Below, piece by piece: positions 4,913 through 13,358 of a DNA stretch of 25,463 nt. This DNA is from a virus. Location: IMG/VR virus record IMGVR_UViG_3300022907_000090, positions 1 to 25,463 of that record; one strand, given 5' to 3'. A model generated the notes under the pieces. The model was not told where the DNA came from, ran no database searches, and saw nothing but the letters and a program-made list of their open reading frames with translations. Within the stretch, counting starts at the first letter, position 1; each line of letters begins with the position of its first letter. The position numbers and the translations under genes were made by a program.

Positions 4913-4941
4913 ATTATAATACACGTACATAATTATGTCAA
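4913..4941 (-). promoter_or_regulatory. Perfect consensus sigma70-type promoter for gp55
   Basis: On the minus strand, TTGACA (4936-4941) and TATAAT (4913-4918) are spaced by exactly 17 bp. The predicted transcript start is near 4906, which leaves a short leader with GGGAG before the ATG at 4890. The spacer contains the ACGTACAT element of the opposing late promoter, and the -35 ends two bases before that promoter's TAAATA. Confidence 0.85.
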
Positions 4942-4949
4942 CTAAATAC
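4923..4949 (+). promoter_or_regulatory. Candidate late promoter for the gp48 operon
   Basis: TAAATA (4943-4948) resembles the T4-like late -10 (TATAAATA). ACGTACAT (4923-4930) stands 12 bp upstream. The same pair with the same spacing precedes gp6. The start of gp48 is 20 bases further downstream, with GGAG (4954-4957) in the leader. This is a late element by position and by the structural genes it serves; activity is inferred. Confidence 0.6.
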
Positions 4950-4968
4950 TAATGGAGAAACACGAATT

Positions 4969-5913
4969 ATGGCACTATTTTCAGGATTTAATCAACTTAA
5001 TAGTAAGATTGGCAATGCGTTTAACAACATTCGGCAAACCACTCAGACTATTAACAACTTCACAGCTAACATTGGCCGAACTAGTAGTCAAGCTACTAGT
5101 TTTTTAAACGGAAACAATCCTCTTATGCGTGGCATAAGCGAAATTAGTGATACTGTACGCAACGTTCAAAATTTATTTGGCATCGGTGGCGTTAACGCTA
5201 ATAATGTTGGTAGTTCAGTTAGGATGATCGGCAATGCTGTTCAAAATGTTGGATATAATGCTTCACCTCCTGATCGTGCAATTTCTAGGGCCATTATTTC
5301 AACTAACAATACCACTACTGAAGCAGGTGACTGGAGAGTTAACATAAGTGTGCCTAGCGTTTTTAAGCCTAGTGTAATATTACAACCGTTATTTGATACA
5401 GGAAATAAAATGATTTTTCCGTTTACTCCTAGTATTTTAATTGGACATAGTGCAAATTATTCTCCTATACAGCCGACACATACAAATTTTCCGTTTCAGG
5501 CATATGAAAATAGTAATATTGATGCATATACTATAACAGGAGAATTTTTTAATGAAAACGAAGCTGATGCAATGTACTGGATTGCATGTTTGCATTTTTT
5601 AAGAAGTGCTACTAAAATGTTTTATGGAGAGAGCAGTCCGATAGGAAATCCACCACCAGTAGTTAGACTTAACGGATACGGAAATCATGTATTAAACAAT
5701 ATTCCAGTTGTAATTACTAACTTTACGACTGACTTGTCACCAGATGTTGATTATATTGAATGTACAGTTGATGGACAACTTAATTATGTACCTGTACAGT
5801 CGTCTATTACTGTGCAATGTACTCCGACGTATGCTCGCCGATCAGCAGCAAGATTTAGTTTAAACAGTTATGTTAACGGTGGTCACACAGGTGGCGATGA
5901 AGGATTTGTATAA
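4969..5913 (+). CDS. 48: gp48, baseplate tail-tube cap protein
   Basis: This 314-residue protein (T4 gp48 is 364) fits the tail-tube-associated baseplate protein, which sits on the hub and starts tube polymerisation. The first 85 residues are Asn/Ser/Thr/Gly-rich with a heptad-like hydrophobic pattern. The rest is a compact domain with SVFKPSVILQPLF, a FPFTPSILIGHSANY strand pair and ITNFTTDLSPDVDYIECTVDG, typical of tube-type beta folds. Position supports the call: first gene of the late structural operon and directly followed by gp53, which starts within its stop codon (TAATG). The assignment rests on recalled similarity to marine T4-like gp48; gp54, a related tube protein, is the alternative. 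Confidence 0.75.
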   Translation: MALFSGFNQLNSKIGNAFNNIRQTTQTINNFTANIGRTSSQATSFLNGNNPLMRGISEISDTVRNVQNLFGIGGVNANNVGSSVRMIGNAVQNVGYNASPPDRAISRAIISTNNTTTEAGDWRVNISVPSVFKPSVILQPLFDTGNKMIFPFTPSILIGHSANYSPIQPTHTNFPFQAYENSNIDAYTITGEFFNENEADAMYWIACLHFLRSATKMFYGESSPIGNPPPVVRLNGYGNHVLNNIPVVITNFTTDLSPDVDYIECTVDGQLNYVPVQSSITVQCTPTYARRSAARFSLNSYVNGGHTGGDEGFV

Positions 5914-6212
5914 TGGATAGTAAAACATTTGGGCCGTACGGTTCTACATCGGTAACTAGTGCAGGTTATTTAGATATAATGAAAGCAAGACCGATTCCAG
6001 TGGGCGGAGATGATATTCTTTATGAAATAACTCCAGCATATACATATCGCCCTGACTTATTAGCATACGATTTATATGGCATAAAAGAATTATGGTGGGT
6101 GTTTGCCCAAAGAAATTTAGATATATTAAAAGATCCATTATTTGATTTTGTAGCTGGAACGAAGATTTATCTCCCTCAAGGAACAAATTTGAAACAATAC
6201 TTAGGATATTAA
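5913..6212 (+). CDS. 53: gp53, baseplate wedge subunit
   Basis: This 99-residue protein is shorter than T4 gp53 (196). The recognisable core runs from about residue 45 to 95: YRPDLLAYDLYGIKELWWVF, then AQRN, DPLFDF and GTKIYLPQ. That pattern is the LysM-like part of gp53, which clamps wedges to the central hub. Its start overlaps the gp48 stop by one base, and its stop is followed directly by the next ATG with no gap. No ribosome site is needed if translation is coupled. The T4 N-terminal extension appears to be reduced. Confidence 0.88.
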   Translation: MDSKTFGPYGSTSVTSAGYLDIMKARPIPVGGDDILYEITPAYTYRPDLLAYDLYGIKELWWVFAQRNLDILKDPLFDFVAGTKIYLPQGTNLKQYLGY

Positions 6213-12874: not shown

Positions 12875-12891
12875 AATAGGGTAAATATAGT

Positions 12892-13329
12892 ATGAGCGAT
12901 TTAGAAAAAAACCTATATAAACGTGTAACCGTTTCTCCAAAAGCTACACCGGCAAAATCTGGAAGAGCATATAAAGGGTTTTCCACGATTAATGATAATG
13001 CTAAGGGATTTTCGTTATATGATTTTGATTTAATTAAGCAAGATTTAATTAATTATTTTCATATTCGCCAAGGAGAAAAACTAACAGATCCTACTTTTGG
13101 AACTATTATTTGGGATCTGTTATATGAACCGTTTACACAAGATGTGCAAGATGCAATAGTTGAAAATGTTACTAAGATAGTCAACTATGATCCTAGACTA
13201 GGTGTCAACTCTATTGTAGTAGATTCGTACGAACAGGGCATTAGTGTAGAATGTTCTATAATATTTTTACCATACAACATTTCGGAATCTCTTAAATTTA
13301 GATTTGATCAAAAAAACGGTTTATTATAA
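12892..13329 (+). CDS. 25: gp25, baseplate wedge subunit
   Basis: This 145-residue protein (T4 gp25 is 132) belongs to the gp25/TssE sheath-initiator family. It has IRQGEKLTDPTFGTIIWDLLYEPFT (residues 58-82 region) and NYDPRLGVNSIVV (about 98-110). Asp100-Pro101-Arg102 stands where T4 has the EPR motif that binds neighbouring wedge parts, so the first acid is conservatively changed. The protein joins gp6 and gp53 in the wedge core and nucleates the sheath. It lies 17 bp after gp5, with TAGGG 10 bases before the ATG, and just upstream of gp6, the usual T4-like order. Confidence 0.92.
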   Translation: MSDLEKNLYKRVTVSPKATPAKSGRAYKGFSTINDNAKGFSLYDFDLIKQDLINYFHIRQGEKLTDPTFGTIIWDLLYEPFTQDVQDAIVENVTKIVNYDPRLGVNSIVVDSYEQGISVECSIIFLPYNISESLKFRFDQKNGLL

Positions 13330-13332
13330 TAT

Positions 13333-13358
13333 ACGTACATTATCTTATCAGATAAATA
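13333..13358 (+). promoter_or_regulatory. Late promoter of gp6
   Basis: GATAAATA (13351-13358) is a close match to the T4-like late -10. ACGTACAT (13333-13340) lies exactly 12 bp before its TAAATA core, as before gp48. A transcript starting near 13365 would carry AAGGA (13370-13374), 8 bases before the gp6 ATG. The -10 overlaps a small palindrome (TTATCT-TATC-AGATAA, 13340-13355). Confidence 0.65.

Follow-up and report, generated by a model that had tools for sequence, protein, structure and literature searches.

An operator-like palindrome upstream of two T4-type late promoters in a group of uncultured phages

Late promoters of the gp48 and gp6 operons

The window analysed here is the whole of a 25,463-base IMG/VR virus record (IMGVR_UViG_3300022907_000090) of an uncultured phage. 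The phages that carry the box described below are uncultured, mostly marine T4-like viruses, and the nearest named relatives by protein were Sinorhizobium phage Phosso, Agrobacterium phage Atu_ph07 and Salicola phage SCTP-2, with about 35-38% identity in gp6. The genes and late promoter elements at the two loci are as follows.

4036-4902, minus strand: gp55 late sigma factor, long form (phrog_12791, E 6.6e-77; T4 gp55, 7d7c, E 1.4e-5, residues 135-240)
4923-4930, with TAAATA at 4943-4948, plus strand (TAAATA): ACGTACAT and late -10, gp48 side, exact match
4969-5913, plus strand: gp48-like baseplate gene, first gene of the operon with the box promoter
13333-13340, with TAAATA at 13353-13358, plus strand (TAAATA): ACGTACAT and late -10, gp6 side, exact match
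13383-16886, plus strand: gp6 baseplate wedge gene (phrog_10646, E 1.3e-294)

The name gp48 was taken from the initial annotation and from gene order. The start of gp55 is probably the second Met near 4890, because many relatives begin with MRKK. A GIY-YIG endonuclease of the SegE type (PF19835, E 2.9e-33) was found at 511-945 on the minus strand, at the end of the gp55 operon.

The initial annotation had reported ACGTACAT-N12-TAAATA at 4923-4948 and 13333-13358; both copies proved to be exact, both had the 12-bp spacing, and they were the only exact matches within the window. When up to three mismatches were allowed, 4 matches were obtained in the window against 7.4 expected, and because such matches are not in excess, the significance of the pair rests on its exactness and on the relatives.

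T4 late genes are the textbook example of transcription from promoters that are recognised by the -10 only. The T4 late promoter (TATAAATA, with gp55, gp33 and gp45) shares with the present ones the TAAATA core, the short leader to late structural genes and the gp55 gene: a TATAAATA/NATAAATA -10 was found shortly before late structural genes, and gp55 is encoded at 4036-4902 of the window. It differs in having no conserved element upstream of the -10, whereas a subset of the promoters studied here has a palindrome 18.5 bp upstream. The premise of the initial annotation, that T4 late promoters are described by the -10 alone, agrees with a review whose available passages state that there is no upstream or -35 element (PMC2988020).

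Conservation and symmetry of the box

For the comparison with relatives, 80 gp6 loci and 45 gp48 loci (125 related loci) were taken from viral contigs. ACGTACAT was found at most 80 nt 5′ of TAAATA 13 times in these loci and the window together, 10 of the 13 with a spacing of 12; the 13 cases include near-duplicate contigs, and about 5 sites were judged independent. A two-component mixture model, not guided by the box, was then fitted to 206 non-redundant TAAATA sites 5′ of ORFs. It found one motif in a third of them, reaching from about -30 up to -1 when counted from the T of TAAATA, and the random starts shown converged on the same solution as the start seeded with the box. Scores above 0 were reached at 70 of the 206 sites and at 1 of 790 TAAATA sites elsewhere, a comparison in which the model was trained on the 206-site set itself, without cross-validation.

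Models were also trained on one promoter group and applied to the other, with promoters that had not been selected by the box. Within a range of 60 bp, the gp6-trained model scored highest at offset 18 in 75 of 82 gp48 promoters and at offset 17 in 6 others, 11 of the 93 gp48 regions having been left out for too little upstream sequence; the gp48-trained model scored highest at offset 18 in 60 of 77 gp6 promoters and at offset 17 in 8, and in the window's own gp6 row a wrong, later TAAATA was taken. These two results confirmed the claim of a second conserved box at about -30 of two unrelated late promoters. TAAATA itself was present in all 77 gp6 and all 93 gp48-region sequences. At a strict per-position cut-off of 1e-4, the cross-trained models recovered 39/93 gp48 and 28/77 gp6 promoters, a low recovery because the two promoter groups differ in detail. 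Judged on sequence, the box shared by gp48 and gp6 is not due to chance.

Five hold-out contigs were chosen by an unrelated gene and taken regardless of their gp48 or gp6 coverage. Two of the five contained exactly two perfect box-N12-TAAATA matches each, the pair was not found in G013 (180 kb), G016 and G017, and the reversed-pattern control gave 0 in all five.

The box turned out to be a 20-bp inverted repeat with the consensus TWAWVTRC|GYABWTWA, centred 18.5 bp before TAAATA, where the palindromy sum was 5.82 (next best centre, 0.07). With gp6 promoters alone, palindromy was again best at -18.5 and none of 5000 column permutations reached it; with gp48 promoters alone, 23 of 5000 reached the observed value. 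The two boxes in the window are these, scored with the symmetric 20-bp model.

4915-4934, no strand: palindromic box of the gp48 late promoter (TATAATACACGTACATAATT), centre between 4924 and 4925, score 12.7, offset kept in relatives
13325-13344, no strand: palindromic box of the gp6 late promoter (TATAATATACGTACATTATC), centre between 13334 and 13335, score 13.6

Across eight long contigs and the window (972 kb), the symmetric model gave 25 matches above 12 against 0 in Markov shuffles, and 35 above 11 against 3.0. Among the matches above 10, 34 of 41 (3 of the 34 being a hairpin arm at the MSRPKP gene described below) lay outside ORFs of at least 100 aa, although such DNA makes up 4.6% of the bases. 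An inverted repeat that is intergenic and occurs at several promoters has the general features of an operator for a dimeric regulator.

Promoters that carry the box

In the eight long contigs (945,943 bases), the box with a TAAATA-like core was found 19 times: at gp48 in 8/8 contigs, at gp6 in 7/8, at gp26 in three with the core TACATA, and at one tail-tube gene. The gp6 promoter of G004 is a diverged site with a box score of 1.5, and scores below 0 were obtained for the gp6 promoters of L024, L035, L030, L038 and L078. Homology to PA5oct proteins served to place other late genes on the contigs. Of these, gp18, gp19, the neck gene and the homologues of PA5oct 357, 359, 282 and 283 had TAAATA with negative box scores, and for gp21 and gp23 no TAAATA was seen within 110 nt in 4/5 contigs each, among the matches listed. 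The search of relatives against shuffled sequence proposed in the initial annotation was thus borne out in part: the box is in excess over shuffles, but it is confined to few late genes and missing at gp18, gp19 and the neck gene. As a general late-promoter element it did not hold up, the full motif being found in the eight long relatives (946 kb) only at gp48, gp6, gp26 and one tail-tube gene. A box match of 14.7 was seen just 3′ of the gp18 end, before a hairpin (L227:13680-13700; G002 near 33490), about 41 nt 5′ of the gp19 TAAATA; it was seen in this contig only.

A regulon scan of all family loci yielded 191 non-redundant box matches, most of them 5′ of a few genes: 66 at a conserved gene whose protein begins MSRPKP, 50 at gp6 and 49 at gp48, followed by gp26 and a divergent neighbour with 8 each. 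gp55 lay on the other strand at 48/49 gp48 sites. The offset to TAAATA was 18 at 49/49 gp48 and 47/50 gp6 sites, these sites having been selected by box score. At MSRPKP, 40 of the 66 sites were matches 11 bp 3′ of TAAATA; these fall on the 5′ arm of a leader hairpin and are not to be counted as operators. Besides this arm, MSRPKP promoters chosen by protein had upstream palindromes 19-22 bp from TAAATA, and the spacing between box and TAAATA is thus not fixed everywhere.

The leader hairpin was observed at L354:2967-3006, L402, L415 and other loci. Its 5′ arm, TATRCGTA, stands right after TAAATA. The partner of this arm, TACGYATA, lies immediately in front of the start codon or overlaps it, and the loop contains the ribosome site. 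The folding energy was -6.7 to -13.7 kcal/mol in 23 of 26 leaders folded (L392, L421 and L378 were weak or different), and the arms covary, those of L402 being quite different. A transcript starting about 13 nt after the T of TAAATA would be without the 5′ arm and hardly folds. In T4, the soc and e leader hairpins block translation of early read-through RNA, and the MSRPKP leader resembles them.

The gap between gp48 and gp55, and the region upstream of gp47, hold sigma70 promoters on the minus strand.

4913-4941, minus strand: divergent sigma70 promoter TTGACA-N17-TATAAT for gp55, exact match in the window, box within the spacer
4022-4050, minus strand: sigma70 promoter TTGACA-N17-TATAAT of gp47, window match, at most one mismatch in 52/76 upstream regions
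4005-4024, no strand: additional match to the box (13.2), 5′ of gp47 and partly over the -10 of its sigma70 promoter

The palindrome fills the 17-bp spacer of the gp55 promoter, and since TTGACA-N17-TATAAT lies on the other strand of the gp48 box, the gp48 late -10 and the gp55 -35 abut. In relatives, this promoter was exact across the gp48 box at 33 of 55 sites and had one mismatch at 14, and it was in register with the box at 47/55. The flanking bases AATA and TCA, which the initial annotation had seen to agree between the two copies, do agree; at gp48, however, part of this agreement has a second cause, because TCAA and TTATAAT there are parts of the gp55 sigma70 promoter, of its -35 and its -10 respectively. 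Such an arrangement could mean that the conserved block is nothing but the divergent gp55 promoter, which extends exactly across the gp48 box, and that its likeness to gp6 is accidental. We regard this as highly improbable: a divergent sigma70 promoter with at most one mismatch was found at 0/49 gp6 sites, yet gp6 promoters share both the palindrome and its distance from TAAATA, and the model of each group finds the other, so that the gp6 set largely refutes it. Overlapping early and late promoters are described for RB49 and S-PM2 in the passages available of PMC2984593; sigma70 and late promoters stand in one gap there as here, but here they are divergent and share an operator-like palindrome.

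The box at gp47 was lineage-specific, with scores above 7 in 2 of 76 upstream regions (the window and L087) and absence from the other 74. The box over the gp47 -10, the box in the gp55 spacer and the varying distance at MSRPKP (19 to 22) would fit a pure repressor operator, at which a dimeric repressor of phage or host would silence these promoters and the gp55 sigma70 promoter until it is removed. This is the main rival to the reading we prefer below, and we hold it to be rather unlikely: gp6 has no divergent sigma70 promoter to repress, yet its box stands at the same distance as that of gp48; rigid spacing is more typical of proteins that touch polymerase; and the gp47 box is rare in relatives.

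Candidate readers and proposed role

No box match above 11 was found in the stretches examined of PA5oct, RaK2, Atu_ph07, Phosso, SCTP-2, Vibrio 2.275.O, HTVC008M and Syn9, the last with no box in 49 kb. In 250 kb of PA5oct there were 2 matches against 1.0 in shuffled sequence, which is no excess, and a similar profile of 27 PA5oct late promoters showed no upstream element. In the gp26 gap of Phosso, a similar sequence (GTTAACCGCGTACTAAATA) was noticed by eye at one site, with scores under 8.

gp55 of this phage has 288 aa against 185 aa in T4, and its N-terminal part is conserved, also in PA5oct, RaK2, SCTP-2 and Vibrio 2.275.O. The box could therefore be pictured as a -35 element that the late holoenzyme itself reads, either through the N-terminal part of gp55, some 130 residues that T4 lacks, or through a gp33-like protein, and its position near -31 would suit this. 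We consider such direct reading improbable, since the stretches examined of the four phages just named, whose gp55 is of the same long form, gave no box, since the box-bearing phages themselves have many late promoters without it, and since the box is symmetric. On the same grounds (four relatives with the long gp55 and no box above 11, and a box with two-fold symmetry), gp55 is an unlikely reader and the altered gp55 contact suggested in the initial annotation is unlikely; the long N-terminal part was rejected as a simple reader.

Other proteins were considered. A homologue of DsbA adjoins the DNA polymerase gene in this group (phrog_639, E 5.1e-7; phrog_12534, E 2.5e-16), with a PF11126 match below the cut-off of that family. 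Its predicted structure was helical and of low confidence (mean pLDDT 70), and Foldseek with this model gave nothing (best E 8.5). In the passages available of PMC2988020, T4 DsbA is a small DNA-binding protein with specific A/T-rich sites that overlap two late promoters, of low affinity and with no clear role, and those of PMC2984593 report cyanomyoviruses to be without dsbA. By analogy the homologue may be named as a candidate reader only; PA5oct encodes one too (44% identity), yet has no excess of boxes. The DNA around dsbA and gp43 was not enriched in boxes (3 matches above 10 against 1.6). The MSRPKP protein as its own regulator was rejected: Phosso, PA5oct, Atu_ph07 and SCTP-2 encode it (43-67% identity) and their promoters for it have no box above 7, that of Phosso reaching 6.8.

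A basic protein of 74 aa, encoded at 972-1196 of the window (minus strand) in the gp55-gp47-gp46 operon, has relatives in 8/8 long contigs; 58 distinct versions of it were found, and it had no match in 50,697 phage records. Its distribution is promising, but its model is a two-helix hairpin without helix-turn-helix (mean pLDDT 85), and it is therefore a weak candidate only. Among 79 small ORFs of the relative G006, no helix-turn-helix family appeared in the best 25 of 58 Pfam families or the best 25 of 83 PHROGs families. The same relative encodes (L218-L225) NifU-like, A-type Fe-S carrier, ferredoxin-like, peptide deformylase, GTP cyclohydrolase and Asp/Arg hydroxylase-like proteins, an iron-sulphur set unusual for a phage. 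The candidates for the reader are the phage DsbA homologue, another clade-specific protein or a host regulator.

Our reading is that the box is a putative operator of a dimeric, sequence-specific protein which acts with the gp55 late polymerase at chosen late promoters, and we think this probable, though with some reserve. In the DNA, this is suggested by the inverted repeat, by a position that is constant at gp48 and gp6, by the presence of the box at few promoters and in one phage group, and by its position in the spacer of the gp55 promoter; from these we infer that a protein would bind the box, that it would be a dimer, and the mechanism that follows. With TAAATA placed as in T4, the dimer would be centred around -31 relative to the late start, where sigma70 holoenzyme would read a -35 element. 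There it would contact the late holoenzyme and favour the promoters of the gp48 operon, the gp6 operon, gp26, the tail-tube gene and the MSRPKP gene. Bound between gp48 and gp55, this dimer would also keep sigma70 polymerase off the promoter that gp55 has of its own, and the switch to late operons would thereby reduce transcription of the late sigma gene. In favour of contact with the late polymerase is the constant distance at two promoters that are otherwise unrelated; in favour of the exclusion of sigma70 polymerase is the position of the box inside the gp55 promoter. A fixed distance alone does not tell activation from repression; activation at late promoters together with repression of gp55 is our first choice as the most likely, ahead of pure repression.

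In T4 middle promoters, a box for the activator MotA (TTTGCTTTA) stands near -30 in place of the -35 element and is combined with a sigma70 -10. The present promoters are alike in having a box near -30 that stands in for a -35 element, but MotA works with sigma70 and not with gp55, and here the -10 is TAAATA and the box is palindromic, unlike the MotA box, so that they do not match a MotA promoter. Binding to the MotA box is mentioned in the passages available of PMC5780444. As far as the passages of the literature on related phages show, only late motifs of the TATAAATA type are described there, and the titles and opening parts of abstracts seen, mostly not from subscription papers, contained none on an upstream palindrome at T4-type late promoters. 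What the group has at these genes can be described as a late promoter of the T4 type with an operator-like palindrome in front of it.

In T4, late transcription is coupled to DNA replication. One could go further and imagine a dimer, encoded by the phage, that takes over at -31 the activating role of the sliding clamp or of gp33 at these late promoters. The baseplate operons would then escape this coupling, and the dimer would also close the gp55 promoter, making one operator an early-to-late toggle; this is a long shot. In a widespread phage group, a fixed upstream operator on only some late promoters would show how late genes split into sub-classes, and the palindrome could be used as bait for its reader protein. 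The presence of this operator within the promoter of the late sigma gene would point to a way in which the late switch may control itself.
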